Origin: Chloroflexota bacterium | GTDB lineage: Bacteria; Chloroflexota; UBA11872; VXNJ01 | Assembly (NCBI GenBank): GCA_009840625.1 | Contig: VXNJ01000010.1 | Location: forward strand, 62,001 to 126,000 | Direction of reading: 5' to 3' | Length of the DNA: 64,000 nt | Shown here: positions 395 to 60,264 of the stretch, one piece after another | Numbering within the stretch: the stretch's first letter is position 1 | How the letters are laid out: the number at the start of each line of letters is the position of its first letter | Position numbers and translations under genes: made by a program | Notes under the pieces: generated by a model | Database searches by the model: none | Told to the model about the DNA's origin: nothing | Seen by the model: only the letters and a program-made list of their open reading frames with translations

Positions 395-829
395 TCAGCA
401 ATCTTCAGCGACCGGTTTGCGGCCCGCGAAGCCCTCGTCGGGGCGGTGCCAGTACAGGATGTCAGGTTCGCCCAGGCGGAAGCACCAGCACAGCGGTCCG
501 TCGGCGTCGCGGCCCGGGAAATCGATGATCCCGCTGCGCAGGTCGCGCACCAGGATCCCGTCGTCGGAGAGCTCGCGCAAACGCGCGTTCATAGACGCGA
601 GCAGTTCGTCCAGTCCGGGTGCGTCGCCCTCGGCCGGCGCCATCCCTTCGGCGGCGCTCCCCCAGGCCCGCATCTGCCCGCGGAGCTCGGCGATCTGCTC
701 CAGCCGGCGAACGGTGGCCGGCAGCAGCGCGCGCGCCTCTTTTAGCGAGTAGAGACGCTCTTCCTCCAACGGTCCCCGGCCGGCCTTATTCGGCCTCGTC
801 TTCGGGCAGATCGCGCCCGCCGCCGGCAA
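395..829 (-). CDS. DUF2203 family protein
   Basis: A small soluble protein of about 120-144 residues. The core begins YSLKEARALLP, continues through a charged helical region and ends with a segment containing DFPGRDADGPLCWCFRLGEP and then DILYWHRPDEGFAGRKP. This arrangement is typical of DUF2203, a family of unknown function common in Gram-positive and Chloroflexota-like bacteria. The ATG at 829 would overlap the upstream aldo/keto reductase by 44 bases and add about 20 unconserved residues. A TTG at 769, just after that gene's stop, fits the family better. It is probably transcribed with the reductase. No catalytic motif is visible. Confidence 0.75.
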   Translation of the reverse strand: MPAAGAICPKTRPNKAGRGPLEEERLYSLKEARALLPATVRRLEQIAELRGQMRAWGSAAEGMAPAEGDAPGLDELLASMNARLRELSDDGILVRDLRSGIIDFPGRDADGPLCWCFRLGEPDILYWHRPDEGFAGRKPVAEDC

Positions 830-1862
830 ACCGCTGCGGTTCGCGGTTCCAGGGATTCCAGCCGCCCTTGGGAGAGACCATCATCTCGTCGGCGACGTTG
901 CGCTGATAGGCCTCGTCGGATATCGCGGTCACCTCGGCGTAGAGCTCGGGCGAGAGTTTCCACTCGGCCGCGCGGGCGGCGTCGTTGACTTCGGCCGGGG
1001 TCCGGAACCCGACCAGCGCGGTGGATACGACCTCGTGCGAGAGCACCCAAGCCAGGGCCAGATCGGGCAGGGTGTGGCCCTCGCGCTCGGCGATCGCCCG
1101 CAGCCGGTCTTGGGTTTCGACGTTGGCCGGGAAGTGCTTCTGGCGGTCGAAGAACGGCATGCCGAAGGCATGGCCGGAATCGCGCCAGTCCCAGGTCTCG
1201 AACTGGTAGTCGGCCGGCATCGCGCCCGAAAGCAGGCCGTGGGCCAGCGAGCCGTAGCTCATGATCCCCACCCCGTTCTGCTCGCACCAAGGCATCACGT
1301 CGCGCTCGATGCGGCGTTCCAGCATCGAGTAGCCCATTTGGTTGGCGACTATCCCCAGGTGCTTCTTGCACTCGGTAAGCATCTCCGGCATGAAGTTTGA
1401 GACCCCGGCGTAGCGGATCTTGCCGGCCTGCTGCAGCTCTTCCAGGGCGCGCATCGTCTCCTCGAACGGCGTATCGACGTCGGGCCAGTGGATCAGCAGC
1501 AGGTCGATGTAGTCGGTCTGCAGGTTCTCAAGGCTCCGCTCGCAGGACTCCAGCACGTGGGCGCGGGTGCCGTTGCGTTCCATCCGCTTTTCGGCGTCGT
1601 TCCAGGCGATTCCGCACTTGGTCACCAGCACGATCTGGTCGCGGATCGGCTTGAGCGCCGCGCCCATCACCCGCTCGGAATGACCCAGTCCGTAGCCGGC
1701 GGCGTTGTCGAAACACGTGACCCCCAGGTCAAAGGCCCTCCGCACCGCGTCCTGGCCCTCGCTGTCGTCGACTTCGCCGTACTGGGTACCACCCATCGGC
1801 CAGCCGCCGAAACCAACTACTGAGACCTCGAGGTCCGAATCTCCGAATTTGCGGTATTCCAT
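786..1862 (-). CDS. Aldo/keto reductase, copy 1
   Basis: A 358-residue NAD(P)H-dependent aldo/keto reductase with a (beta/alpha)8 barrel, beginning MEYRKFGDSDLEVSVVGFGG. The catalytic Asp and Tyr appear in CFDNAAGYGLGHSERV, the Lys in LVTKCG and the His in LLIHWPD. The family reduces aldehydes, ketones or sugar derivatives; the substrate cannot be read from sequence. It is the last of three tandem paralogues on this strand (about 130 bases after copy 2) and lacks the 13-base promoter element found upstream of copies 2 and 3. Its end overlaps the DUF2203 frame if that gene starts at its ATG. The C-terminal tail is acidic. Confidence 0.9.
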   Translation of the reverse strand: MEYRKFGDSDLEVSVVGFGGWPMGGTQYGEVDDSEGQDAVRRAFDLGVTCFDNAAGYGLGHSERVMGAALKPIRDQIVLVTKCGIAWNDAEKRMERNGTRAHVLESCERSLENLQTDYIDLLLIHWPDVDTPFEETMRALEELQQAGKIRYAGVSNFMPEMLTECKKHLGIVANQMGYSMLERRIERDVMPWCEQNGVGIMSYGSLAHGLLSGAMPADYQFETWDWRDSGHAFGMPFFDRQKHFPANVETQDRLRAIAEREGHTLPDLALAWVLSHEVVSTALVGFRTPAEVNDAARAAEWKLSPELYAEVTAISDEAYQRNVADEMMVSPKGGWNPWNREPQRFAGGGRDLPEDEAE

Positions 1863-1993
1863 GGCGTTCTTGGCTATTCCCTGGCTACGCGGCCGACACG
1901 GCGCCGGCGCGGTTCTGGCGCCGCCAATTCTGGCAATGCCTGGCCGCGCGCGGTCCGGCCCGGGCGGTTCAACGCCTCACCCGGCGACCACGG

Positions 1994-3031
1994 TCAGGCG
2001 AACTTGGTCGGGTTGGGATTCCAGGCGTTCTTGGTTCCCACCGGCGGGGCCATCATCTCGCCCGAGACGTTGCGCTGGTAGGCCTCGTCAGATATCGCGG
2101 TCACCTCGGCGTAGAGCTCGGGCGAGAGTTTCCACTCGGCCGCGCGGGCCGCATCCTCGACCTGTCCCGGAGTGGTGAATCCGACCAGCGCGGTGGTTAC
2201 CGTCTCGTGCGAGACCACCCAGGAGAGCGCCAGATCGGGGAGGGTGTGGCCCTCGCGCTCGGCGATCGCCCGCAGCCGGTCCTGGGTCTGGATGTTGGCC
2301 GGGAAGTGCTTCGCGCGATCAAAAAGCGGCAGTCCGAAGGCGTTGCCCGAGTAGCGCCAGTCGTTCGGCTTGAATTCGTATTCGGCGGTCATGGCCCCCG
2401 ACAGCAGGCCGTGGGCCAGCGAGCCGTAGCTCATGATCCCGATCCCGTTCTGCGCGCACCAGGGCATCACGTCGCGCTCGATGCGCCGGTCCAGCATCGA
2501 GTAGCCCATCTGGTTGGCGACGATGCCGAAGTGCTTCTTGCATTCCTCCAGCATGTCCGGCAGGAAGTTCGACACCCCGGCGTAGCGGATCTTGCCGGCC
2601 CGGTGGAGCTCTTCCAGCGCCCGCATAGTCTCCTCGAATGGGGTGAAGATGTCCGGCCAGTGGACCAGCATCAGGTCGATGTAGTCGGTGTCCAGGTTCT
2701 TGAGGCTCCGCTCGCAGGACTCCAGCACGTGGGCGCGGGTGCCGTTGCGGATCACTCCGCCGCCCTCGGGGTCGCGGTCAAGTCCGCACTTGGTCACCAG
2801 CACGATCTGGTCGCGTATCGGTTTGAGCGCCGCGCCCATCACCCGCTCGGAGTGCCCCTGCCCGTAAACGGCGGCGTTGTCAAAGCACGTGACCCCCAAT
2901 TCATGCGCGCGCCGCACCGCAGCTTGGCCTTCGCTGTCGTCGGACTCGCCGTAATTTCCGCCCATCGGCCAGCCGCCGAACCCGACAACCGAGACCTCGA
3001 GTTCCGAATCACCAAACTTGCGGTATTCCAT
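1994..3031 (-). CDS. Aldo/keto reductase, copy 2
   Basis: A 345-residue aldo/keto reductase closely related to its neighbours on both sides. It starts MEYRKFGDSELEVSVVGFGG and keeps the family residues: Asp/Tyr in CFDNAAVYGQGHSERV, Lys in LVTKCG and His in MLVHWPD. A small difference from copies 1 and 3 lies just after the catalytic Lys (LDRDPEGGGVIRNGTRAHV), where the others read AWNDxxKRxERNGTR. The differences between copies cluster in such loops, suggesting altered substrate range after duplication. A 13-base element shared with copy 3 lies about 60 bases upstream and is a candidate promoter. The reductant and substrate are unknown. Confidence 0.9.
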   Translation of the reverse strand: MEYRKFGDSELEVSVVGFGGWPMGGNYGESDDSEGQAAVRRAHELGVTCFDNAAVYGQGHSERVMGAALKPIRDQIVLVTKCGLDRDPEGGGVIRNGTRAHVLESCERSLKNLDTDYIDLMLVHWPDIFTPFEETMRALEELHRAGKIRYAGVSNFLPDMLEECKKHFGIVANQMGYSMLDRRIERDVMPWCAQNGIGIMSYGSLAHGLLSGAMTAEYEFKPNDWRYSGNAFGLPLFDRAKHFPANIQTQDRLRAIAEREGHTLPDLALSWVVSHETVTTALVGFTTPGQVEDAARAAEWKLSPELYAEVTAISDEAYQRNVSGEMMAPPVGTKNAWNPNPTKFA

Positions 3032-3089
3032 CGCTGTCCATCCATTCCCGGGCGCCGCGCAGGGTGAGCGTCCGCGGGGCGCATTGACC

Positions 3090-3102
3090 GCCCATTATTG
3101 AC
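3090..3102 (-). promoter_or_regulatory. Shared 13-base element upstream of AKR copy 2
   Basis: On the minus strand this reads GTCAATAATGGGC, identical to 4338-4350 upstream of AKR copy 3 and in the same orientation and similar distance. AATAAT (3094-3099) could be a -10 box; no good -35 is seen here. It is probably a conserved promoter or operator kept after gene duplication. Confidence 0.4.
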
Positions 3103-3212
3103 GGATTCGACGTCCCTCTTCGTCCCTCAAAGCTACCTGCCGGCGGCCGATTATTCACGAGCCCGGAAAAGGACGGCCGGGATTCTCAAGGCGCCGCGCG
3201 AGCGGCTGTTAC

Positions 3213-4289
3213 CTAGTCGTTTGTCCGATCGGAGGGCGAGAGTCCGGCGGTGCCGAACCGCTGCGGTTGCCGATTCCACGGATTCCAGTTTCCGATCGGC
3301 GGAGTCAACAGCTCTTCGGCGACGTTGCGCTGGTAGGCCTCGTCGGAGATCGCGGCCACCTCGGCGTAGAGCTCGGCCGTGAGCTTCCAGTCGGCCGCGC
3401 GGGCGGCCTCGTCGACTTCGGCCTGGGTCCGGAATCCGACCAGCGCGGTGGTCACAACCTCGTGGGCAAGAACCCAGGCCGTCGCAAGTTCGGGCAGGGT
3501 GTGGCCTTCGCGTTCGGCAATCGCGCGGAGCCGGTTCTGGACCTCCACGTTGGCCGGGAAGTGCTTTTCGCGGTCAAAGATTGGCAGTCCGAATGCGTGA
3601 CCGGTAGCCCGCCAGTCGCCGGTCTCGAACTGGTGGCCGGCGCCCATCGCCCCCGAGAGCAGGCCGTGGGCCAGCGAACCATAACCCATGATCCCGATCC
3701 CGTTTTCTTCACACCATGGCATCACGTCGCGCTCGATCCGGCGTTCCAGCAGCGAATATCCCATCTGATTGGCCACGATCCCCAGGTGCCGCCGGCACTC
3801 CTCCAGCATCTCGGGCATGAAGTTGGAGACCCCGGCGTAGCGGATCTTGCCGGCCTGCCGGAGTTCCTCGAGCGCCCGCATCGTCTCCTCGAAGGGGGTG
3901 TAAACGTCGGGCCAGTGGACTAGCAGCAGGTCGATGTAGTCGGTCCCGAGATCCTTGAGGCTCCGCTCGCAGGATGCTAAGACGCTTTCCCGGGTGCCGT
4001 TGCGCTCGACGCGCTTGACCTCGTCGTTCCAGGCCAGCCCGCACTTGGTCACCAGCACGATCTGGTCGCGTATCGGTTTGAGCGCCGCCCCCATCACGCG
4101 CTCGGAATGGCCCACGCCGTAGACGGCGGCGTTGTCGAAACAGGTGATTCCCAGGTCGAACGCATGCCGAACCGCGGCCTTGCTTTCGCCGTCGTCGACC
4201 AGGCCGTAATTTGACCCGCCCATCGGCCATCCGCCGAACCCGATCACCGAGACTTCCAGCTCCGAGTCGCCGAACGTGCGATATTCCAT
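3213..4289 (-). CDS. Aldo/keto reductase, copy 3
   Basis: The first gene of the tandem triplet, 358 residues, starting MEYRTFGDSELEVSVIGFGG. Catalytic tetrad positions are intact: CFDNAAVYGVGHSERV (Asp, Tyr), LVTKCG (Lys) and LLVHWPD (His). It has the same length as copy 1 and shares the AWNDE..KR loop with it, so copies 1 and 3 look closer to each other than to copy 2. A plausible minus-strand promoter (TTGATA, 16 bases, AATAAT) lies 50-80 bases upstream. It is separated by 181 bases from copy 2, so each may be transcribed separately. Confidence 0.9.
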   Translation of the reverse strand: MEYRTFGDSELEVSVIGFGGWPMGGSNYGLVDDGESKAAVRHAFDLGITCFDNAAVYGVGHSERVMGAALKPIRDQIVLVTKCGLAWNDEVKRVERNGTRESVLASCERSLKDLGTDYIDLLLVHWPDVYTPFEETMRALEELRQAGKIRYAGVSNFMPEMLEECRRHLGIVANQMGYSLLERRIERDVMPWCEENGIGIMGYGSLAHGLLSGAMGAGHQFETGDWRATGHAFGLPIFDREKHFPANVEVQNRLRAIAEREGHTLPELATAWVLAHEVVTTALVGFRTQAEVDEAARAADWKLTAELYAEVAAISDEAYQRNVAEELLTPPIGNWNPWNRQPQRFGTAGLSPSDRTND

Positions 4290-4957: not shown

Positions 4958-5983
4958 TTACGCGCCGAGCCCGGCAACCGAATCGCCGCTGCTGCGCTTG
5001 AGCCACTCGACTCTGGAGTCGTCGTGCATCGGCTCCAGCCAGTTCACGTCCGGCCGCGGCGGTGACGGCAAGTCGTGTTTTTCGAGCCACGCGCGCGAGG
5101 AGACGTAGTCGAGCATCCCCTGCTCTATGCCGCTCTGGGTCTGCGGGTATTCGGCGTAAAAATCCAGCAGCGCGTCGCGCCGGATCACCAGCGTCGAGAG
5201 CGCCGTGATCGCCCGCACCGAAGCCGGACGCGCGGTCTGCCCGAGCAGGGCTAGTTCGCCGAAGTGGTCGCCTTCGGAGAGTTCGTGGAAACGGGTCCGG
5301 CGGCGACCGCGGCCGCGGTCGAAGTGCGAGACCTGCAACAGCGCCTGGCCGCGCCGCAGAAAGTAGAAGTCGGTGCCGTAGTCGCCCTGACGGTAGAGGA
5401 TTGCCCCGGCCGGGTGGCGCCGCCAGCTGAAGCGCGCCGCCAGCGATTCGATCTGTTCGTCCTCGAGTTGGGCCAGGTAGGTGATGTTGCGCAGGTAGGC
5501 GGCGAACACGGTCCGCAGATACGACTCGTTCAGGGCCGCGGTCAGATCGGAGCGCTGGACCTCCCCGCCGAGCAGCGAGCCGACATCCAGGACCAGGACT
5601 TCGCTGTGGGCCTCGGCCGAGGCGTGGATCATCTCCGGCAGCCCCAGGACCCTTTCGAAGTTGCCGAACGCCGCGCCCTCGCCGACCAGCCAGCCGCGCC
5701 GCTGACCCTCGTCGGGATGGCTCGGCACCGAGAGTCGCACCGAGCCGGCCGCCAGCACGTAGAGATTGCGGTCGCGCATGCCGGGTTCGGTGATGACCGT
5801 CCCGGGCTCGGCGATCAGCAGCCGGCTGCGCCGGGCCAGCTGGCGGCGAAATTCCGGGGACAGCCGCTCGAACAGTTCGATCCCGGCCAGCGCCTCCTCG
5901 ATCCGGCCGGTACGGATCTTCCAGCCGGCGGAGCGCACCGCGTAGCCGGCCCATTCCCAGATCGCCGCCAGGGCCGGGTTCAA
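4958..5983 (-). CDS. Tandem cyclic-nucleotide-binding domain protein coupled to pafA
   Basis: A 341-residue protein with two CRP/PKA-type cNMP-binding folds and no recognisable DNA-binding or enzymatic domain. The second fold (about residues 180-310) has a well-kept phosphate-binding cassette, FGELALLGQTARPASVRA, including the Arg that contacts the cyclic phosphate. The first (about residues 35-150) is degenerate in that loop (AFGNFERVLGLPE), so probably only one site binds ligand. The TTG start overlaps the pafA stop (TTGA) and is preceded by GGAGGAGGGCC, implying translational coupling. Its position at the end of the pupylation operon suggests it senses a nucleotide and regulates PafA or Dop, or acts as a substrate adaptor; that is inference. 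Confidence 0.8.
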   Translation of the reverse strand: MNPALAAIWEWAGYAVRSAGWKIRTGRIEEALAGIELFERLSPEFRRQLARRSRLLIAEPGTVITEPGMRDRNLYVLAAGSVRLSVPSHPDEGQRRGWLVGEGAAFGNFERVLGLPEMIHASAEAHSEVLVLDVGSLLGGEVQRSDLTAALNESYLRTVFAAYLRNITYLAQLEDEQIESLAARFSWRRHPAGAILYRQGDYGTDFYFLRRGQALLQVSHFDRGRGRRRTRFHELSEGDHFGELALLGQTARPASVRAITALSTLVIRRDALLDFYAEYPQTQSGIEQGMLDYVSSRAWLEKHDLPSPPRPDVNWLEPMHDDSRVEWLKRSSGDSVAGLGA

Positions 5984-7530
5984 AGGCCCTCCTCCGGGTC
6001 GAGATCGTCTTCCTCGAATTCGGCCTCGTCGTAGGGGGGTTCTTCGAGCAGTTGGCCGATCTGCCCGGCGAAGGCGGCCGAATCCTCGGCATAGCGTTCA
6101 AACGGATCGCTGATCTGCAGCACCGCGCCGTTGACCGCGATCGATTCCCAGTCCAGCACGTAGGGCACCACGTCCCAGGCTCCGGAGGCCTCGATCTCCT
6201 CCCAGCCGTCAATGTAGGAATAGACCCGGTACAGGCGGCCCTCCCACAGGGCGTAGTCGGACAGTCCGTTGCGCAGCCGCCGCCAGTTCACGTGATCGGC
6301 CGCGCCGGCCTCGGCCAGGGCCCGCAGGACCTGGGCCCGGGCGAACGCGCGGGTGTCGGTGGGCGGGGAGGCGATCGCCCGCCGGGCCACCGGCGCCGGC
6401 AGCAGAAAACCCATCTCGGAGCGCTCGCGCAGGGCGGCGAACACGCTCTGCTCGGATCCCACTATGTGATAGGCCTGATCGACCTTGAGCAGGTCCCGGT
6501 CGCTCCAGCCCGATTCGCTCTCGCCGGCGACCTCGCGCAGCACGCCGCGCTTGGTGACCCAGTCCAACTTGCCGTTCAGCTTTTCGGGGTCGCTTTCCAG
6601 CTGGTCGAGCACGGCGGCCCAGTTCTCCAGCGTCCAGTCGGTGTCGGCATCGCGGCCGGCGAAGCGCCGCGTGGCCTCGTGCAGGTAAAGGCGCTGCACC
6701 TCCACCGCGGACACCGACCCGTAGCGCTCGTCCTGGACCGTCCAGTCGCCCTCGGTGTTGGCCGCTATCTGGCGCAGATCGCGGACCGGCGTGCTGAGCG
6801 TCAGCGGCTGGGTCCAGCCGCCATCAAGGAGCTGGGTTACCAGCGCGGCGGTGCCAATCTTGAGCGCGGTGGCGTATTCGGAACGGTTGGCGTCGCCGAT
6901 GATCACGTGCAGGCGGGCCCTGGTCCCCAGCGGCTCGTCGCGCAGGTTGATGATCGGGCGGCCGCCGTAGCGGACCCGCCGCGAAACCCCCACGTCGGCA
7001 AACTGGGCCCGCTGCGAAATGAAGTACCGGGCCACTTCGTTGCGGCCGCCGAAGAAGACCATCCCGGCCCCGGCGAAGATCTGGCGGGTGACCAGGAACG
7101 GCATGAGCCCGGCGATGACCAGGTCGTCGTCGGGGCGGCGGCGCATCGAATAGCTCTCGTGGTAGCCGAAGGTGTTGCCGCAGTAGTCGGTGTTGCTCTT
7201 GACGAAATAGATGCTCTCGTCCTTGCCCAATCGCCCGACCGTCTCGCCCAGAATCTGCTCGACGGCCATTTCCTGGGCCACCAGCGAGGCCAGGGTGCGG
7301 CATTCGGGAGTGGCGTATTCGAGGTGCCCGGAGTCGATCAGCAGGCGCCCGCCGTTGAACAGAAAACCGCCGTTGGCGGGGGTCTCGCCCCACTCGCGGG
7401 GGGCCGGATCGACCACCCCGTAGCGGTAGCCGTCGAAGATCTCGGTCTTGACCATCGCCGCCGCCAGCGGCGCGTCGACCGCGCCGGTTACGCCGAACTC
7501 GACTTCGGTCCCGAACAGCGCGTCCTGCAT
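5980..7530 (-). CDS. pafA: Pup-protein ligase PafA
   Basis: A 516-residue member of the carboxylate-amine ligase family that attaches Pup to substrate lysines using ATP. It starts MQDALFGTEVEFG, which carries the nucleotide/Mg-binding glutamates. The catalytic Asp is D66 in LLIDSGHLEYATPEC (the usual HPEY is HLEY). Further conserved blocks are FVKSNTDYCGNTFGYHESY, LMPFLVTRQIFAGAG and LHVIIGDANRSEYATALKIG. It lacks the Dop loop seen in the upstream paralogue, which identifies it as the ligase. It is about 60 residues longer than mycobacterial PafA and ends in an acidic tail (EAEFEEDDLDPEEGL). It starts six bases after the pup stop, with AGAAGG as ribosome-binding site. Confidence 0.88.
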   Translation of the reverse strand: MQDALFGTEVEFGVTGAVDAPLAAAMVKTEIFDGYRYGVVDPAPREWGETPANGGFLFNGGRLLIDSGHLEYATPECRTLASLVAQEMAVEQILGETVGRLGKDESIYFVKSNTDYCGNTFGYHESYSMRRRPDDDLVIAGLMPFLVTRQIFAGAGMVFFGGRNEVARYFISQRAQFADVGVSRRVRYGGRPIINLRDEPLGTRARLHVIIGDANRSEYATALKIGTAALVTQLLDGGWTQPLTLSTPVRDLRQIAANTEGDWTVQDERYGSVSAVEVQRLYLHEATRRFAGRDADTDWTLENWAAVLDQLESDPEKLNGKLDWVTKRGVLREVAGESESGWSDRDLLKVDQAYHIVGSEQSVFAALRERSEMGFLLPAPVARRAIASPPTDTRAFARAQVLRALAEAGAADHVNWRRLRNGLSDYALWEGRLYRVYSYIDGWEEIEASGAWDVVPYVLDWESIAVNGAVLQISDPFERYAEDSAAFAGQIGQLLEEPPYDEAEFEEDDLDPEEGL

Positions 7531-7536
7531 GGCCTT

Positions 7537-7731
7537 CTACTGCCCGCCCGGTTGCGGCGTCGGATCGGGGATTTCGCGGATGATCCGCCGTACCCGCTCG
7601 CCGAGCTCCTCTTCCTTGCCCTCGTCCGGCGCCTCGGCCGGATCGGTCTCGGTCTCGGTGTCCGGTTTGGCCGGTGCGTCGGTCTCCAGGCAGATTCGGT
7701 CGGGACCGGCGTCGACTTGATCTGAACGCAC
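7537..7731 (-). CDS. pup: Prokaryotic ubiquitin-like protein Pup (divergent)
   Basis: A small acidic protein between dop and pafA, the standard position of pup. With the GTG at 7731 (AGG six bases upstream) it has exactly 64 residues, the same length as mycobacterial Pup. A TTG at 7749 would add six residues. The sequence is Asp/Glu/Pro-rich and probably disordered, with one helical stretch (GKEEELGERVRRIIREI) and the C-terminus PDPTPQPGGQ. The final Gly-Gly-Gln is the Pup hallmark: Dop must deamidate the Gln to Glu before ligation. The region before GGQ is proline-rich rather than the helical FVRAYVQK-like end of actinobacterial Pup. Assignment rests on context, size and the GGQ end; overall similarity is low. 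Confidence 0.82.
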   Translation of the reverse strand: MRSDQVDAGPDRICLETDAPAKPDTETETDPAEAPDEGKEEELGERVRRIIREIPDPTPQPGGQ

Positions 7732-7779
7732 CTGCAACCTGCCTCTCAAATCGACCCGGCTATCACCAAGGTGCCGCGA

Positions 7780-9288
7780 TTATCGTTCCCCGAACGCGAC
7801 CAGTCCGGAGCGGGCCAGGGCGCGCTCCAGGGCCGCGGCGTCGGCCGCCCGCTCGGCCGCGGCCGAGAGTTCGTCGATATCGCCCGAATGGACTGCGCCC
7901 AGATCGATCCGCACCCCCCGGCCGCCGAGGCGCAGTTGCACAGAGTCCCATTCGATCGCCTCGATCAGCCCGCCGAATCGGGCAACGAGCAGGCCGCGCA
8001 AGCGGGCCCGGGTGTCACTTGGCGCGCGGCGCAGGGCCGCGCCCGCCTGCTCCGGCGCCACCAGGGAGCGCATCCGGCCCTGGCCGACCAGCTGGAGGTG
8101 CGTCGAGTAGCGCGGATCGAGGTAGTGGTAGGCCAGATCCAGGCGCTGCAGCTCGGAACCGGAAAGTGGTTCCCCGCCGTCCTCGAGCGCGGCGACCAGC
8201 CCGGCTTTGGCGCACCAGTCGACCCGGTCGGCGGCCGCCGAGGGATCGCTGCGCAGCTGGTCGAGCAGTTCGCGACTCTGGCCGATGATCCAGGCGCGTT
8301 CACCCGATCCCGGCGCCGACGCGGTCACCGCGTCCAGGTAGATTTCCAATACGTCCAGCAACGCCAGGCGCCCGCGCGAAGTCTCGACCACGGCCTCAAG
8401 GCCCGGATCGCGCGAGAACGTGCGCATCGCCCGGACCGGGTCGTTGAGTGCGACCCCAAAGTCGTGGCCGGCCTCGATCCGATCCAGCACCAGCGCCGTC
8501 AGGCCCGCCTTGAGCGCCGTCTGGTAGTGCGAGCGGTTGGCGTCTCCGCAGATCACGTGCAGGCGGCGGTAGCGGTCGGGCCGGCTGTGCGGTTCGTCGC
8601 GGGTGTTGAAGATCGGGCGGTCGGTGGTGGTGTTGATGCCGCTGACGCGGGCGAAGAAATCGGCCCGCTGCGATATCTGCAGCCCGACCGACCGGTCGGC
8701 GTGCTGCCCTTCGCTGCCGAATTTGCCGGCGCCGGTCAGGGCGATCCGCGAGACCAGGAACGGGACCAGCTGGCCGATCAGGAACCGCAGGTCGAGCCGG
8801 CGGTCGACCAGGTAGTTCTCGTGCGTGCCATAGGAGCGACCGTGGTAGTCGGTGTTGTTTTTGACCACCAGGACCTGGCCCTCCAGGCCGGCGGCGTTGC
8901 GGACTCTCTGGCAGGAGAGCAACAGCGCCTCGCCGGCGGCGTCCTGGCGGACCAGCTCGAAGACCGAGCGGGTCACGTCGGTGCAGTACTCGGGGTGGTT
9001 GTGGTCGTTGTAGTAGCGCGCGCCATTCGGCAGGACCGTGTCGGCGATGAGCTCCTGCCGCGACAGCCCGGCGCTGCGGCGCCGGTTGTCGGCCAGATCG
9101 CCCGGATCGCGGGCCAGGCGATGGCGTTGGCCGAAGAGATCCAGCCGGCCGTCCTCGTGCGAATAGTCCCAGCCCCGGAACACCGGTTCGATTTCGGCCG
9201 CCCGCACCAGCGTAGAGGCCTCAAACGCAAAGTCCACCGGCCCCTCGAAGCCGAGGCAGATCATTCCGTACTCGGTCTCGATCCCCAT
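7780..9288 (-). CDS. dop: Pup deamidase/depupylase Dop
   Basis: A paralogue of PafA that converts Pup-Gln to Pup-Glu and removes Pup from substrates. From the ATG at 9288 it begins MGIETEYGM and has 502 residues; an in-frame GTG at 9378 would add 30 unconserved Pro/Ala/Ser-rich residues. D95, in ARYYNDHNHPEY, is the expected catalytic aspartate. The segment at about residues 40-85 (starting GWDYSHEDGRLDLFG) corresponds to the Dop loop absent from PafA, which separates the two. Other family blocks are VVKNNTDYHGRSYGTHENY, LVPFLVSRIALTGAGKFG and RRLHVICGDANRSHYQTALK. It is followed 48 bases later by pup and preceded by an S9 peptidase gene on the same strand. Confidence 0.88.
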   Translation of the reverse strand: MGIETEYGMICLGFEGPVDFAFEASTLVRAAEIEPVFRGWDYSHEDGRLDLFGQRHRLARDPGDLADNRRRSAGLSRQELIADTVLPNGARYYNDHNHPEYCTDVTRSVFELVRQDAAGEALLLSCQRVRNAAGLEGQVLVVKNNTDYHGRSYGTHENYLVDRRLDLRFLIGQLVPFLVSRIALTGAGKFGSEGQHADRSVGLQISQRADFFARVSGINTTTDRPIFNTRDEPHSRPDRYRRLHVICGDANRSHYQTALKAGLTALVLDRIEAGHDFGVALNDPVRAMRTFSRDPGLEAVVETSRGRLALLDVLEIYLDAVTASAPGSGERAWIIGQSRELLDQLRSDPSAAADRVDWCAKAGLVAALEDGGEPLSGSELQRLDLAYHYLDPRYSTHLQLVGQGRMRSLVAPEQAGAALRRAPSDTRARLRGLLVARFGGLIEAIEWDSVQLRLGGRGVRIDLGAVHSGDIDELSAAAERAADAAALERALARSGLVAFGER

Positions 9289-34215: not shown

Positions 34216-36816
34216 TCAGGCCACTCGCAGCGTCACCGACGCGCCGGCCGAAATCGACAGGGGAGCGGACAGTTCGGCCGCTCCGGCCCCGTCCAATTCG
34301 AAGCCCTCGAGATCCAGTCGGCCTTCCGAGCAGCCGAGTTCGACCTCCCAGCCCTCGCCGTTAGCGCTGATCCGGCAGCGCCCGAAGGCAGACCCGTTGG
34401 ACCAAAAGGCGAACTGCTCGCGTGCCGCAAATCGCATCTGCCGGCTGACCCCGCAGTACTGGTAACCGGAAAGGGCCAGAACGGCTCCCCAGGAAGCCAT
34501 CGCGCGGGCGTAGTGGTGGCCGCATTCGGCCTCGTCGAAGGGGTTCCGGCGCCGGCCGTCGTAGCGGGCCCGGACCGCCTCGATCACCTCCAACCCGCTG
34601 GCCAACTGGCCCTCCAGGATCATGCCCACGGCGGCGGTGTACTCGAATCCGGTCATGACTTCGTTGGCGTAAGGGAACGGCCGTTTGGGGCGCCCGCCGC
34701 GCGGCCAGGTCGCCATCAGCAGGGCCTGTTCGTCGTTGAGGACGTAGGTCCGGGCGTGATTGAAATGGTGGAAGAAGGAGCGGCGGAAGTTGTGGCGCAT
34801 GATCGCCGCGTGGGTGGCGGCCACGTTCTCGGGCGACAGCAGGTAGCCGAGGCCGTTTAGGTGAGCGAAGAACTGCCCGACCAACTGGTCGACCAGGCAG
34901 CCCGGGCCCAGTTGCAGGTCCGGGTCGGAAACGTCGCGCGCGCCCATCGACTCGATGCGTAGACCGGGCGCGATTTCGGCCGGATTGCCGATCGGGACTA
35001 TCTGGTGCTCGTAGTACTCGCCGTTGAATAGGTTGGCGTCGGACCAGGCGCTGCCGGCCTCGAACAGGCGGCGGCATTTTTCGGCGAAGTCGCGCTCGCC
35101 CAGGTGGCGGGCCATTTCCTCGGCTGCGCGCAGCGCACCGAGATACCAGCCCTGCATCTGCGGGTTGGGGCCGAAGTACTCCACGTCCATGGTGTTGTGC
35201 TGGCAGCCTTCCATCACCCCGTCGCGGTCGCCGTCCCAGCCGCCCTCGACCCAGCAGTACTCCAGCGCCCGCTTGCAGTGTGGCCAGAGTTCGGCCAGAA
35301 AGTCGTCGTCTCCGCTGAGGCGCCACTCGCGGTAAAGCTTCATGACGCAACCCAGCTGGCCGTCGGCGGCGGCCGATACGAACTCGGTGGCCCGCCCCTC
35401 CAGCGGCAGCATCACCCGGAAGGACATCTTGCCCTCGGCGTCGGTCGCGTGGGCGAACTCGACCTCGCGCATGCTGCGGGCCAGGTCCCCGAACAGGTAG
35501 GCCAGCGCCTGCTCGTAGTTCCAGACGTGGGTGCAGGAGCCCGGGCAGCAGCCGACCGCGTCGTTGCAGCCCTCCCATCCGTAGAAACGCCCGTCGGCGG
35601 TGCGGAAACAGGTTTGTGACTTGAGCGTCGAGAGGTTGAAGAGGGCCGCCTCCTTGACCGCGCCCGGCAGGTCCGTGCCCAGAAAGGCGCCCACGAACTC
35701 CAGGCTGCGCCGCTCCAGTTCATCCAGTTGCCCGACCGCGGCCGCGGCCGCCTCCCAGGCATCGTCGAAACGGGTGGCATAGTGGTTGCCGATCCAGTCC
35801 GGATTGCCGGTCCCCTCACAGCAGCCATCGTCATCGGCGCAGCAGTCGCTCGGCTGCCCGCAGCCGCAGTCGCCGTCGGCGCAGCAGTCGGCACCCATGC
35901 GATGCATGTCCCAGGTGAGTCGGTTGGGAAAGTGCCAGCTGAGCAGGAACGTGACCGAGGCCTCTTCGCCCGGTGCGACCTTGAGCGGCACCGCCAGCGA
36001 TCCGACCGCCAGCGACTCCTCGGCGGGGCGGTCGGCAATCTTGCCGTCGGCTGCGAACTCGTCCCAGAAGTCCAGCAGGTAGTTGCCCCAGCCGGGGTTG
36101 GGCCAGGCGGTCCGGTAGCTGCACTCCGGAGCGGTTGTAACCAGGGCCATGGTGCCCCACTGCTCGGAGCCGGGCGCAACGCCCTCCGAATCCATGTAGA
36201 TGCCCTGGAAGCCGTCCCCCTGCCGGAAGCGGTTGCGGTTTGCATCGGGCTGCCCGCGATTGCCGTCGGTGCCGATGAAGTTATCGAGCGAACCGCAGAT
36301 CGAGGCTTCCAGCTCCGACTCGGACTCGTTGGCCACCACGAAGCGCAGGGCCGCGAACGGCATTCCGCTGGCGTCGGCATCGCCCGGGATCAGGGGGTTG
36401 AACGCCTCGATCCGCACCGAGGCCGGCACCGCCGGATCCGAAAGGCAGACCTGGCCGAACGGGTAGGCGGCGTGAAACGAGCACTCGCGCCAGTGCGGCA
36501 GCCCGTGATTGGGAACCTCGCTGCCCCTAAAACCCTCGTAATCGGCCTGATCGATCGTCCCTTCCAGCGACAGCGCCTGCGGCTCCCCGTCGCCGGCTTT
36601 GAGCCAGATTGCAAAAAACGTCGCGCTGCCCAGCCGCTGACGGGGTGAAAACCCCTTGGCCGGCCGGTTCACGATCTCCCAGTCGCGCAGTTGGCCGCGC
36701 CCGCCGAGCGAAACGCACCCCGTGCCGATACCGCCCAGGGGCATCCCGATCGCCCGCAATCGGTCCTGCGGGTAACTGGTGAGAACGGGCCACTTGGAAC
36801 TGGTCGAAATCGGCAT
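34216..36816 (-). CDS. GH116 family glycoside hydrolase with Cys-rich insertion
   Basis: An 866-residue protein of the GBA2-like GH116 family (beta-glucosidase/beta-xylosidase/glucosylceramidase). The N-terminal beta-sandwich starts MPLGGIGTGCVSLGGRGQ, and the C-terminal (alpha/alpha)6 barrel contains CTHVWNYEQALAYLFGDLAR, CQHNTMDVEYFGPNPQMQGW and ANEVMTGFEYTAAVGMILEG, all typical of this family. Between domains (residues 311-333) there is an insertion with eight cysteines and many Asp/Gly, just before GNHYATRFDDAW. There is no signal peptide, so the enzyme should be cytoplasmic. It converges with the YceI gene (10 bases apart). The natural substrate is unknown. Confidence 0.88.
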   Translation of the reverse strand: MPISTSSKWPVLTSYPQDRLRAIGMPLGGIGTGCVSLGGRGQLRDWEIVNRPAKGFSPRQRLGSATFFAIWLKAGDGEPQALSLEGTIDQADYEGFRGSEVPNHGLPHWRECSFHAAYPFGQVCLSDPAVPASVRIEAFNPLIPGDADASGMPFAALRFVVANESESELEASICGSLDNFIGTDGNRGQPDANRNRFRQGDGFQGIYMDSEGVAPGSEQWGTMALVTTAPECSYRTAWPNPGWGNYLLDFWDEFAADGKIADRPAEESLAVGSLAVPLKVAPGEEASVTFLLSWHFPNRLTWDMHRMGADCCADGDCGCGQPSDCCADDDGCCEGTGNPDWIGNHYATRFDDAWEAAAAAVGQLDELERRSLEFVGAFLGTDLPGAVKEAALFNLSTLKSQTCFRTADGRFYGWEGCNDAVGCCPGSCTHVWNYEQALAYLFGDLARSMREVEFAHATDAEGKMSFRVMLPLEGRATEFVSAAADGQLGCVMKLYREWRLSGDDDFLAELWPHCKRALEYCWVEGGWDGDRDGVMEGCQHNTMDVEYFGPNPQMQGWYLGALRAAEEMARHLGERDFAEKCRRLFEAGSAWSDANLFNGEYYEHQIVPIGNPAEIAPGLRIESMGARDVSDPDLQLGPGCLVDQLVGQFFAHLNGLGYLLSPENVAATHAAIMRHNFRRSFFHHFNHARTYVLNDEQALLMATWPRGGRPKRPFPYANEVMTGFEYTAAVGMILEGQLASGLEVIEAVRARYDGRRRNPFDEAECGHHYARAMASWGAVLALSGYQYCGVSRQMRFAAREQFAFWSNGSAFGRCRISANGEGWEVELGCSEGRLDLEGFELDGAGAAELSAPLSISAGASVTLRVA

Positions 36817-53617: not shown

Positions 53618-55189
53618 ATGGCCGACGACATGGGCTTTTCCGATATCGGCTGCTTCGGCTCCGAGATCGCCACCCCCAACCTCGATTCGCTAGCGGCCGG
53701 CGGGATGCGGTTTTCGCAGTTCTACAACTACGCCCGCTGTTGCCCGACCCGGGCCGCACTCTTGACCGGCCTCTACCCGCACGAGACCGGAATCGGTCAC
53801 ATGGCGATCAACCTTGCGCCGCCCCATTACCAAGGGTTCCTGAACCGAAACTGCATCACCCTGGCCGAAGCCTTGAAGTCGGCCGGGTATTCGACCTATA
53901 TGGCCGGCAAATGGCATGTCGGCGGGGACTTTCCGATGCGGACCTGGCGCGAGAAAGCCCGCATCGGCGAGGCCGGATATCCGACTCCGCGCCAGCGCGG
54001 ATTCGACCGCTTTTACGGGATCCTGACCGGCGCGGGCAATTACTTCGACCCGCACACCCTAATGCGCGACGATGAACTCACCGAAATCGAATACGGAGAT
54101 TACTACCTAACCGACGCGATCGCCGCCAACGCAGCCGACTACATCCGGGCGCACTCCGGGGACAGCCCCTTTTTTCTCTACACAGCCTTTACCGCTCCCC
54201 ATTGGCCACTGCACGCGCTCGAAGAGGACATAGAACGCTACCGCGGGCGCTACCGGATCGGCTGGGAGGAACTGCGCCAACGTCGCCACGAAGAGCTAAA
54301 CGGGATGGGAATCCTGTCCGAGACCTGGGATATTTCTCCGCGCGACCCCGCGGCCCCGGCCTGGGAGGACGTATCCGACAAGGACTGGGAAGACGCCCGC
54401 ATGGCCGTATATGCGGCGATGATCGACCGCATGGACCAGGGAATCGGCAAGATCCTGGATGCGGTGCGCGCATCAGGCCAGTGGGACAACACCCTGATCA
54501 TGTTCCTCTCCGACAACGGAGGCTGCGCTGAATTCCTGCGAGAAGACGGAATTCCCGACGCCGCCCCGCGGCAGACCCGGCTGGGCGATCAGATCCGGGT
54601 CGGCAATCACGCGGGGTTAGTCCCCGGGCCCGAATCGACCTGGCTCAGCTACGACAGGCCCTGGGCCAACGCCTCCTGCACGCCCTTCCGGCTCTACAAG
54701 CACTACACCCACGAGGGCGGGATCTCCACCCCGTTCATTGCTCATTGGCCAGGCACCATAGAGCCCGGCGCGATCGGCCACCAGCCGGCCTGGGTCGGAG
54801 ATTTCATGCCCACGTTTCTGGACGCGGCTGGCGGAAAGTACCCGAGCGAGCACGAAGGCAACCCGATCGCCCCGGTTCGCGGCGAGAGTTTCCTGCCGGC
54901 GCTTACTGGAGGATCAATCGGCCGCCAGCGTCCAATCTTCTGGGAACACGAGGACAACCGCGCGGTGCGCCACGGGCGCTGGAAGCTGGTTGCCCACCAC
55001 GGGCGAGACTGGGAACTCTACGACCTGGCCCGGGATCGCACCGAGCTATGCGACATGGCCGCCGTCAACCCCCGCCAACGCGACTCGATGCTCGACGCCT
55101 ATCAGCGATGGGCCGACCAGGTCGGGGTCAGCGATTGGAGCCAGTTAATCGCCCTGCCGCAAGCCGCCCGCTACCGCGAGTGGCTTTGA
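53618..55189 (+). CDS. Arylsulfatase-like type I sulfatase, D (start codon unclear)
   Basis: At least 523 residues with all the cluster motifs: NYARCCPTRAALLTGLYPHE (formylglycine Cys), AGKWHVGGDFPMRTW, LIMFLSDNGGCAEFLREDG and LYKHYTHEGGISTPFIAHW. The first ATG (53618) falls inside the conserved strand: the bases before it read GVAARPNIVLV in the same frame, continuing the family start. That frame is open back to the stop at 53462 and has no ATG, GTG or TTG. Either a rare start codon (for example CTG or ATT near 53501-53504) is used, or the start has been lost. Metal ligand DD lies directly after the ATG, so a protein from 53618 would lack the first beta strand. Confidence 0.85.
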   Translation: MADDMGFSDIGCFGSEIATPNLDSLAAGGMRFSQFYNYARCCPTRAALLTGLYPHETGIGHMAINLAPPHYQGFLNRNCITLAEALKSAGYSTYMAGKWHVGGDFPMRTWREKARIGEAGYPTPRQRGFDRFYGILTGAGNYFDPHTLMRDDELTEIEYGDYYLTDAIAANAADYIRAHSGDSPFFLYTAFTAPHWPLHALEEDIERYRGRYRIGWEELRQRRHEELNGMGILSETWDISPRDPAAPAWEDVSDKDWEDARMAVYAAMIDRMDQGIGKILDAVRASGQWDNTLIMFLSDNGGCAEFLREDGIPDAAPRQTRLGDQIRVGNHAGLVPGPESTWLSYDRPWANASCTPFRLYKHYTHEGGISTPFIAHWPGTIEPGAIGHQPAWVGDFMPTFLDAAGGKYPSEHEGNPIAPVRGESFLPALTGGSIGRQRPIFWEHEDNRAVRHGRWKLVAHHGRDWELYDLARDRTELCDMAAVNPRQRDSMLDAYQRWADQVGVSDWSQLIALPQAARYREWL

Positions 55190-55258
55190 CCGGCAATCAA
55201 GTCGGCGAGATCAACCGCGCCCGGAAAGTCATTCATCCGGCAGACTCGTCCAATCAAA

Positions 55259-55612
55259 TCAGCGGGGAGCCGGCCGGTCCAGCTTTCTGCGATCGTTCCG
55301 CGCCGCCAGCCATGACCGCGCCCCGGCGGCGCCCGCGCCGAGCACGATCACGGATGGCAAGGGGGTTGGAATCGCGGTAAGCAGGGCCACCAAAATCCCC
55401 TTTCCGACCGCAACTCCAAGGTCGTCGCGTGGCGACCCCCGCACCTGAATCAGAGCAATCGCGATGCCCAGGGCGGCCCCGACCGGGACCGAAACTACCC
55501 AACCCGTTCCCAGCGTCGCGGACGTTGCACCAAAAAGCATGACGTCGACCGCAATTACGCCTGCGGCTGCCACCGGGTGAAGCCCGAATAGTCTCAGCAT
55601 CGAACCGCCCAT
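55259..55612 (-). CDS. Small multi-helix membrane protein
   Basis: About 117 residues starting MGGSMLRLFGLHPVAAAGVI (an ATG at 55600 is also possible). Hydrophobic segments lie at about 11-30, 38-58, 72-88 and 88-104, with a short polar loop (VRGSPRDDLGV) and a basic end (RNDRRKLDRPAPR). It lies opposite to, and between, two sulfatase genes, so it is independent of their transcription. No family is recognised. No strong ribosome-binding site is seen, but the hydrophobic-polar pattern is unlikely by chance in this GC-rich context. Confidence 0.5.
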   Translation of the reverse strand: MGGSMLRLFGLHPVAAAGVIAVDVMLFGATSATLGTGWVVSVPVGAALGIAIALIQVRGSPRDDLGVAVGKGILVALLTAIPTPLPSVIVLGAGAAGARSWLAARNDRRKLDRPAPR

Positions 55613-55789
55613 GTGCGAGCCATCAGATACCGCCCCTTCCCGGCAACTTGCCAAATTTTCGAAAACCGCGCCCGTAAACCGGGTAGGGCCGCGTTCCGCG
55701 CGCTCCCCGATGCCGAAAATGGCACCCGGCGGCACATCCGACATTCAAATACGCTGTCGCAACATGTCCAAGCGGGGGCACTTTCGGTC

Positions 55790-57430
55790 ATGGCCAATCA
55801 AAATCCCACCGGCGCCGCGGCCCGGCCAAACATCATCCTGATCATGGCCGATGACATGGGCTACTCCGATATCGGCTGCTTCGGATCGGAGATTGCAACT
55901 CCCAACCTCGACGCGCTGGCGGCCGGCGGGATGCGGTTCTCGCAGTTCTACAACTACGCCCGCTGCTGCCCGACGCGGGCCGCCCTGCTGACCGGGCTGG
56001 CCCCGCACGAGGCCGGTATCGGACACATGTCGGTCGCGCTGGGGCCGCCCCAGTACCAGGGATACCTGAACCGCAGCTGCGTGACCCTGGCCGAAGCTCT
56101 AAAGCCGGCCGGCTATTCCACGTACATGGCCGGCAAATGGCACGTCGGCGGCGACTATCCCTGCAGCACCTGGCGTGACGTGATCCCCAGCATCGGAGAC
56201 GACTCCCACCCCACGCCGCGGCAGCGCGGCTTTGACCGCTTCTACGGGATCCTGGCCGGCTCGGGCAACTTCTTCGATCCGCATTCCCTGATGCGCGATG
56301 ACGAGATCTGCGACATTGAATACCCAGGCTACTACTTCACCGACGCCATCGCCGAGAACGCGGCCGCCTTCGTTAGCGAACACTCGGGCGAGAACCCGTA
56401 CCTGCTTTACGCCAGCTTCACCGCTCCACATTGGCCGCTGCATGCCCTGGAAGAAGACATCGCCCGCTACCGCGGGCGCTACCGGATCGGCTGGGACGAA
56501 CTGCGCAGGCGGCGCCACGAGGAGCTCAACGGGATGGGAATCCTGTCCGAGACCTGGGACATCACCCCCCGGGATCCCATCGCCCCGGCCTGGGAGGACG
56601 TTTCCGACAAGGACTGGGAGGACGCGCGCATGGCCGTGTACGCGGCCCAGGTCGATCGCATGGACCAGGGGATCGGCAAGATCCTGGACGCGGTGCGCGC
56701 TTCCGGCCAGTGGGACAACACTCTGATCATGTTCCTGTCCGACAACGGCGGTTGCGCTGAGATGCTCCGCGAAGACGGCATCCCCGACACCGCCCCGGCC
56801 CGCACCCGCGACGGACGCGCGGTCAAATCGGGCAACGTTCCCGGACTCATGCCGGGCCCGGAGACCACCTACATGAGCTACGACCTGCCCTGGGCTAATG
56901 CCTCCTGCTCTCCTTTCCGGCTCTACAAGCACTACACCCACGAGGGCGGGATCGCCACTCCGTTCGTGGCCCACTGGCCCGACGTGATCGAACCCGGTTC
57001 GATCGGCCACCAGCCGGCCTGGGTGGGCGATTTCATGCCCACGTTCCTGGCCGCGGCCGGTCAGCAGTATCCGAGCGAGTACGACGGTAATGCGATCACC
57101 CCGGTGCGCGGGGAGAGTTTCCTGCCGGCGCTGTCTGGACAACCGATCGGCCGGGAGCGGCCGATCATCATCGAGCACGAGAACAACTGCGCGGTGCGCG
57201 ACGGGGACTGGAAGCTGGTCAACCGCCATCCTGGCGGGTGGGAACTCTACGACATGGCCGCCGACCGCACCGAGTTGTGCGACATCTCCGAGTCGAACCC
57301 GGCGACGCGCGACCGTCTCGTCGACGCATATTCGCAGTGGGCCCAAGACGTCGGCGTCGGCGACTACGACGCGCTGATCGCATCGCCCCAGGCGGCCCGT
57401 TTCCGTCGCTGGACCGAGGACCAGGGTTAG
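55790..57430 (+). CDS. Arylsulfatase-like type I sulfatase, E
   Basis: A 546-residue sulfatase beginning MANQNPTGAAARPNIILIMA, then DDMGYSDIG, C59 in NYARCCPTRAALLTG, AGKWHVGGDYPCSTW, LIMFLSDNGGCAEMLREDG and LYKHYTHEGGIATPFVAHW. The frame is open to 55613 but the ATG at 55790, after GCGGGGGC, starts the conserved part. No signal peptide. It is closest to sulfatases C and D; stretches such as GMGILSETWDI are identical. It ends 12 bases before the HAD gene, so these two are cotranscribed. A role in removing sulfate from imported compounds is inferred. Confidence 0.92.
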   Translation: MANQNPTGAAARPNIILIMADDMGYSDIGCFGSEIATPNLDALAAGGMRFSQFYNYARCCPTRAALLTGLAPHEAGIGHMSVALGPPQYQGYLNRSCVTLAEALKPAGYSTYMAGKWHVGGDYPCSTWRDVIPSIGDDSHPTPRQRGFDRFYGILAGSGNFFDPHSLMRDDEICDIEYPGYYFTDAIAENAAAFVSEHSGENPYLLYASFTAPHWPLHALEEDIARYRGRYRIGWDELRRRRHEELNGMGILSETWDITPRDPIAPAWEDVSDKDWEDARMAVYAAQVDRMDQGIGKILDAVRASGQWDNTLIMFLSDNGGCAEMLREDGIPDTAPARTRDGRAVKSGNVPGLMPGPETTYMSYDLPWANASCSPFRLYKHYTHEGGIATPFVAHWPDVIEPGSIGHQPAWVGDFMPTFLAAAGQQYPSEYDGNAITPVRGESFLPALSGQPIGRERPIIIEHENNCAVRDGDWKLVNRHPGGWELYDMAADRTELCDISESNPATRDRLVDAYSQWAQDVGVGDYDALIASPQAARFRRWTEDQG

Positions 57431-57442
57431 GAGCAAACCGTT

Positions 57443-58162
57443 GTGAAAGACATTGCCCCGGCGGGGATTCGCGCGCTCACTTTCGACGTCTTCGGCACGG
57501 TCGTCGACTGGCGCACGTCGGTGGCCGAAGCCGGCCGCCAGCTGGCCCGTCGCCACGGGATCGACCTTGACGCGAACGAGTTCGCCGAAAAATGGCGCTC
57601 GGGTTATTCGGGCAAGCTGGCGGAGGTAAATTCCGGGCAGCGCCCGCGCGAGCGCCTCAACGACCTGCACCGCGAGATCCTGGCCGAGGTCGCCCCCGCG
57701 TTCGGACTGGACCACCTGCCGGACGCCGAGTTGGACCGCCTCAACCTGGTATGGCACCACCTGCGCGCCTGGCCGGACTCGGCGCACGGACTCTGGCGGC
57801 TGCGCCAGCGCTACCTGGTCTGTGCGTTATCCAACGGCGACAGCGACATGCTCGCCACGATGGGTAAATTCGCCAGACTCGGCTGGGACATGGTGATCTC
57901 GGTCGAGATGGCCAACTCCTACAAGCCGGAACCGGCCGCATACAACAAGGCGATCGAACTGGTCGGCGCGCAGCGGCCCGACCAGGTGCTGATGGTGGCC
58001 GCGCATGCAAACGACCTGGAGGCGGCCCGTTCCTGCGGGATGCGCACCGCGTTCGTGCACCGTCCAACCGAATGGGGACCGGGCAAGGAGCCCGACGACG
58101 GCTCCGGGTTCGACCTCGAGGTGCCCGACCTGGTGGCCCTGGCGGAGGAACTGGGCATCTGA
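57443..58162 (+). CDS. Haloacid dehalogenase type II-like hydrolase
   Basis: A 239-residue HAD hydrolase of the L-2-haloacid dehalogenase group. The nucleophile Asp is in LTFDVFGTVVDWRTSV, the Ser/Asn motif in VCALSNGDSDML, the Lys in ANSYKPEPAAYN and the acidic motif in LMVAAHANDLEAARSCGMRT, which is typical of this group. It hydrolyses 2-halo acids to hydroxy acids, though many relatives are phosphatases or inactive. The GTG start at 57443 follows AGGAG, which overlaps the stop of sulfatase E. A haloalkane dehalogenase gene elsewhere in the window could supply its type of substrate after oxidation; this is inference. Confidence 0.87.
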   Translation: MKDIAPAGIRALTFDVFGTVVDWRTSVAEAGRQLARRHGIDLDANEFAEKWRSGYSGKLAEVNSGQRPRERLNDLHREILAEVAPAFGLDHLPDAELDRLNLVWHHLRAWPDSAHGLWRLRQRYLVCALSNGDSDMLATMGKFARLGWDMVISVEMANSYKPEPAAYNKAIELVGAQRPDQVLMVAAHANDLEAARSCGMRTAFVHRPTEWGPGKEPDDGSGFDLEVPDLVALAEELGI

Positions 58163-58270
58163 ACCGGGAGCCCGGCATCTTTATCTAGAACCTAGAATCG
58201 CCCACGGCGCGACCGCGCTCGGCGGTCCCGCGGTTTAAGTCGATAACGCACATCGAGGGTTGGGATAGAG

Positions 58271-60142: not shown

Positions 60143-60264
60143 CCGGCCGTCCGCGCCCACGGAGTCCGGCTGCGCAATTGGGCAAGAATGGTTCGTTGCG
60201 CCGGCCCGGGCCGGCCGATTCGGTATTGCGCTAGCGGCGCAGCGTGTCGGGGAGGGATGAAACG

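Follow-up and report, generated by a model that had tools for sequence, protein, structure and literature searches.

A dop-pup-pafA operon in a class of Chloroflexota without detectable ARC or 20S proteasome genes

What does a Pup-conjugation system do in a bacterium in which no proteasome can be found? The question is raised by a run of minus-strand genes in a 64,000-nucleotide stretch of a Chloroflexota contig (the window), for which the original prediction described a Dop bearing the Dop-loop, a 64-residue Pup ending in GGQ and a loop-less PafA, with no ARC/Mpa or 20S gene alongside. Pupylation genes are reported in the open literature from Actinobacteria, from Nitrospirae and, here and there, from other phyla. 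No report of them in Chloroflexota was found there, co-mentions of Pup and Chloroflexi being incidental; most subscription journals lie outside this scope, so an earlier description is possible. Below, the class is the Chloroflexota class of the source genome, represented by 41 genomes, and the out-of-class comparison comprises 359 sampled Chloroflexota.

The operon and its conservation

All three predicted genes were recovered on a single minus-strand run. The dop gene (7780-9288, minus) encodes a putative Pup deamidase/depupylase carrying the Dop-loop motif WDY..ED...DL.G and a TT alpha-loop (TT/NTRDEPH); its start is uncertain, the ATG at 9288 lying a few codons short, and relatives begin about four codons earlier. 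Next comes pup (7537-7731, minus), which starts with a GTG at 7731 and encodes a 64-residue tag whose end is RIIREIPDPTPQPGGQ. The six-base gap that had been predicted between pup and pafA is exact (7531-7536, minus, from the pup stop to the pafA ATG, read directly from the sequence), and leads into the gene of a putative pafA-like Pup ligase (5980-7530, minus; ATG start) that lacks the Dop-loop. The run ends with a gene for a 341-residue protein with tandem cyclic-nucleotide-binding domains (CNBD; 4958-5983, minus; PF00027, 83 bits). The Pfam Pup_ligase domain (PF03136) matches both large reading frames, with 407 bits for dop and 334 bits for the pafA-like gene. Most actinobacteria have prcBA between pup and pafA (PMC3511204), as the original prediction had also stated.

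The dop product scores higher against the NCBIfam Dop model (TIGR03688, 340 bits) than against the PafA model (TIGR03686, 270 bits); the Dop score stays below the Dop equivalog cut-off of 492 bits. Against solved structures of Dop, the profile of the class Dop aligns over the full length (E ~1e-141), and the catalytic Asp, the GhExE motif and other active-site residues are invariant in the class enzymes. No Dop relatives were found in viral contigs. The actinobacterial-type order arc-dop-pup-pafA was seen on a human-gut contig; MT835496.1 (L122), labelled Bacteriophage sp., carries an actinobacterial-type arc (apparently frame-disrupted), dop, pup and pafA without prcBA, and is likely a bacterial chromosome fragment.

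Genomic distribution ties the system to the class: PF03136 is present in 39 of the 41 genomes, in two copies in nearly all, and in 0 of the 359 sampled Chloroflexota outside it. Comparison of gene order across relatives, suggested by the original prediction, returned dop-pup-pafA for all inspected loci, which span five families, with nothing in between that could be prcBA; nor does prcBA adjoin the operon in any class locus inspected. The flanks are acc, pfk and phosphoesterase genes in the window's family and ornithine cyclodeaminase, cysteinyl-tRNA synthetase or CoA-transferase genes in others, and this variation marks dop-pup-pafA as the conserved unit. One family seemed to have a conserved gene upstream of dop (cluster C4), which was rejected as a partner, since it has the look of a shadow ORF belonging to a divergent gene. 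One genome encodes a third Pup_ligase-family gene away from the operon (G040:C77:12835-13926, 210 bits).

In comparisons among congeneric species, most dN/dS values lie at 0.03-0.15 for dop and pafA and at 0.09-0.26 for pup (0.36 in one near-identical pair); these low values, indicative of purifying selection, show that all three genes are maintained. The operon has also been lost. The window's family includes a smaller genome, G001, in which the flanking genes remain syntenic: a phosphoesterase gene on one side, aldo-keto reductase and DUF2203 genes on the other. Between phosphoesterase and aldo-keto reductase the operon has gone, and what is left is a dop relic of the first 25 codons (MRAVGIETEYSLNCPGFNNPIDFAY) followed by a stop (L128:12353-12430). 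This deletion of the whole operon makes it dispensable in at least one lineage. G021 likewise has no operon, in a genome only 76% complete. In G020 the Pup-ligase genes are present, the dop-pafA distance is ~290 bp short and pattern search found no Pup tail at the locus, probably reflecting an assembly deletion.

Other genes of the window were recorded in passing. Downstream of the operon lie three tandem aldo-keto reductase paralogues (786-4289, minus; 358, 345 and 358 aa), with one close copy, 74% identical, at the equivalent place in G001. Farther away are a GH116 glycosidase (34216-36816, minus) and a row of two sulfatases, an FtsH-type protease and a glucuronyl-esterase-like protein (53618-61608, plus).

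Search for a proteasome, ARC and a cyclic-nucleotide partner

The source genome (2.27 Mb, 20 contigs, 96.6% complete) contains no 20S- or HslV-type subunit in a whole-genome PF00227 profile search. Class-wide, the profile finds just a lone 246-aa protein, shared by two closely related species, and in a third species a fragment at the end of a contig; none is PrcBA-like. The lone protein, of the proteasome family (Ntn-hydrolase-like), is encoded at L116:2421-3161 in G010 and likewise in G019 (L117); it starts with TLIVAAACKGGIVVAADSQVT, adjoins nuoEF-like NADH dehydrogenase genes and occurs in these two class species only. For ARC/Mpa, no match above the TIGR03689 cut-off was obtained in 43 genomes, including the source genome, whose partial AAA-domain matches fall far under it. 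The observation that the window lacks ARC/Mpa and 20S genes thus extends to the whole genome and across the class, and the search for prcA, prcB and ARC/Mpa elsewhere in the genome, on which the original prediction had staked its reading, found none.

An ordinary Pup-proteasome system, with prcBA and ARC encoded elsewhere, too diverged to be recognized or hidden in assembly gaps, could draw on the state of the class genomes, which are mostly fragmented metagenome assemblies, 69-98% complete. Against it, the ARC OB domain (PF17758, positive in the C. glutamicum and archaeal controls) is found in 0 of 41 class genomes, among them the single-contig G006 and 24 genomes of 90% completeness or more; moreover, the PF00227 search detects HslV and 20S in controls and gives E values below 1e-20 in 19 sampled Chloroflexota from outside the class. 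This reading is already close to refuted.

The CNBD gene initially offered a different kind of partner. Its TTG start overlaps the pafA stop by 4 nt (TTGA), behind a GGAGGAGG ribosome-binding site, so that the gene appears translationally coupled to pafA. Pfam detects two cNMP_binding stretches, of which the second keeps FGELAL...RPAS and the first looks degenerate. The overlap, the strong ribosome-binding site and the binding-cassette-like sequence of the second domain would all suit a protein that couples pupylation to cyclic-nucleotide signalling. However, no relative examined has an orthologue beside pafA, and no cyclase of the Guanylate_cyc family (PF00211), the only cyclase family searched, was found in the source genome. 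Genome matches elsewhere are weak and single-domain, and a CNBD near the operon in G003 proved to be the tail of a Na+/H+ exchanger, not an orthologue. With the adjacency confined to one genome, the link is not conserved, and the proposal of the original prediction that the cNMP-binding protein is a pupylation partner was not borne out. Such coupling is very improbable; the CNBD gene is judged a lineage-specific hitch-hiker outside the core system.

A divergent tag and a divergent putative ligase

The class Pup is defined by the core DLDExxxRIIREIPDPTPQPGG[EQ] and by a variable N-terminus, rich in proline, threonine and glutamate, that looks disordered; the source-genome protein ends in PTPQPGGQ. 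A single match to the tail pattern lies in the window, against 0 expected from shuffled sequence, and 38 of the 41 class genomes have exactly one copy (backward-read control 0). Across 84,980 genomes, the DNA pattern for P[DGNS]PTPQPGG[EQ]-stop returned 35 stretches, of which 34 lie in Chloroflexota; the other, in Bacterium HR10, falls within an amidohydrolase-like ORF and is a chance match. Neither PF05639 nor TIGR03687 matches the class Pups tested at E values up to 10, whereas two actinobacterial-type Pups used as controls match at E 1e-18 to 1e-30, and a comparison of the class and canonical Pup profiles aligned only the Gly-Gly. Because the Pup models give no sequence match, the case for homology is built on where the gene lies, on the size and terminus of its product and on its co-occurrence with Dop, and the class protein would be a distinct type of Pup. 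Tags with terminal Q and with terminal E both occur in the class, many relatives encoding E directly; as Dop accompanies both the GGQ and the GGE variants, it is kept even where deamidation is unneeded.

Structurally, the pafA-like enzyme has the same fold as Dop. Its AlphaFold model, of pLDDT 89 when built from 43 sequences (53 from 10 sequences), finds Dop and PafA crystal structures as its best PDB matches; catalytic Asp66 is invariant and the Dop-loop is absent, the combination of fold, catalytic residue and missing loop expected of a PafA. The enzyme nevertheless scores under the NCBIfam PafA cut-off (246 vs 551 bits). Class-specific features include a PREWGE segment near the N-terminus and a C-terminal insert of ~40 residues. 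The alpha-loop (S.RVR[FY]GG in the class) reads VDVSHRVRFGG where canonical PafA has SSATTRS and is modelled as a loop, not a helix, so that both the Thr-Thr pair and the helical alpha-loop of canonical PafA are missing. According to Hecht et al., alpha-loop conformation is a main determinant of ligase versus hydrolase activity (PMC7947786). Since the class alpha-loop differs, ligase activity is something that we infer here.

The same features would fit an enzyme of another kind, either a further depupylase/deamidase or a ligase whose substrate is a non-protein amine: the model does not show the helix of PafA at the alpha-loop, the Thr-Thr pair is missing, the profile of the pafA-like enzyme scores Dop structures slightly over PafA (303 vs 279 bits), and its weak union with actinobacterial PafA in the tree (support 57/24) is not firm. 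This is an improbable alternative, however, as the enzyme lacks the Dop-loop, keeps PafA-like residues (the G of DSGH, EYAT and the alpha-loop Ser) and is always encoded next to a Pup and a clear Dop; if no ligase existed, this Dop would have nothing conjugated to act on. In tree tests, grouping with the Dop of its own class is not rejected (p-AU 0.53), and grouping with actinobacterial Dop is borderline at 0.0496. An independent invention, in which the ligase arose by in-lineage duplication of a Dop-like enzyme and the tag does not descend from canonical Pup, is conceivable, if rather doubtful.

Proposed function and relation to known systems

The reading that we consider the most probable, with some reservation, is a self-contained, reversible Pup-conjugation cycle that is independent of the proteasome and of ARC. 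Dop would deamidate Pup-GGQ to GGE where needed, as in the source genome, whose tag ends in Q; the pafA-like ligase, using ATP, would join the gamma-carboxylate of the terminal glutamate to target lysines; and Dop would take Pup off its targets again. This predicted chemistry follows from homology and from the conserved active-site residues. With no proteasome and no dedicated unfoldase, the tag must act otherwise or be read by another machine, and a reader unrelated in sequence to ARC would escape the profile searches. The class as a whole retains writer and eraser but has neither the proteasome nor the one Pup reader that is known, which makes a regulatory role most likely: the tag may be a reversible mark altering the activity, assembly or location of its targets, not a one-way ticket to a proteasome. 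No report of Pup conjugates in these bacteria was found in the literature.

The main rival keeps the same cycle and makes the tag a degradation signal for a different AAA+ protease, be it FtsH, Lon or ClpP together with a Clp ATPase, read perhaps through the proline/threonine/glutamate-rich N-terminus of Pup, whose disordered appearance suits this role. ClpP is present in 38 of 41 class genomes, and the source genome encodes FtsH-type and Clp-type ATPases, one of each in the window. Yet across families the operon has no AAA+ or protease gene as a conserved neighbor, the Clp ATPase that lies nearby is retained in G001 despite the deletion of the operon there, and we know of no precedent for Clp, FtsH or Lon acting with Pup. 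Degradation, read in this way, is accordingly a possibility that we take seriously and hold to be on the unlikely side. An AAA+ cluster near the operon (C6) was rejected as a specific partner: in family f1 it is the Clp-type ATPase just mentioned, retained in the operon-less genome, and in family f4 it consists of ORFs of ~340 aa that are presumably RuvB. Two ClpP genes of equal score lie ~2.5 kb apart in the source genome (G000:C10:316280-316825 and 318744-319289), either a tandem duplication or an assembly artefact.

The regulatory reading has its nearest counterpart in Corynebacterium, where non-degradative pupylation has been described for ferritin (PMC3511204, PMC12288473, PMC8223512). 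Both lack the 20S proteasome and have pup directly before pafA (PMC3511204), so that pup preceding pafA without prcBA is not new; reversible tagging through two paralogous enzymes, predicted for the class, is also shared. The original prediction had drawn this parallel, which stands for the missing 20S and for the adjacency of pup and pafA and fails for ARC: corynebacteria keep it, and the processing of pupylated ferritin is attributed to ARC there (PMC3511204, PMC12288473, PMC8223512). It is because corynebacteria keep ARC that its absence from the class is a real departure; the corynebacterial Pup is also canonical, unlike the class Pup with its different tail. In Plesiocystis and Rhodopirellula, as in the class, a Pup ligase and Pup are unlinked to proteasome genes, but those ligases contain four inserted transmembrane helices and have a membrane-protein neighbor (PMC2588565), whereas the class has an apparently soluble two-enzyme system with Dop. 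Neither case matches an ARC-free two-enzyme system with its own type of Pup. The mycobacterial Pup-proteasome system shares the Dop with its Dop-loop, the GGQ-ending Pup and the ligase fold; in contrast to it, the class lacks prcBA and ARC/Mpa, its Pup is missed by Pup HMMs and its ligase has diverged. UBact of Nitrospirae, Armatimonadetes and others resembles the class Pup in being a divergent Pup-like tag found outside Actinobacteria; it differs in being described together with proteasome genes and as having another C-terminal motif.

The diverged ligase could serve as a natural test case for the alpha-loop features that ligation needs, and independent invention, if true, would mean a second origin of Pup-like conjugation, needing neither a proteasome nor a dedicated unfoldase. 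The class also bears on how far the non-proteasomal functions of pupylation extend, a question to which the corynebacterial answer is blurred because ARC remains. As these bacteria keep writer, eraser and tag under selection without ARC or 20S, any function found for the system would be independent of both ARC and the proteasome.
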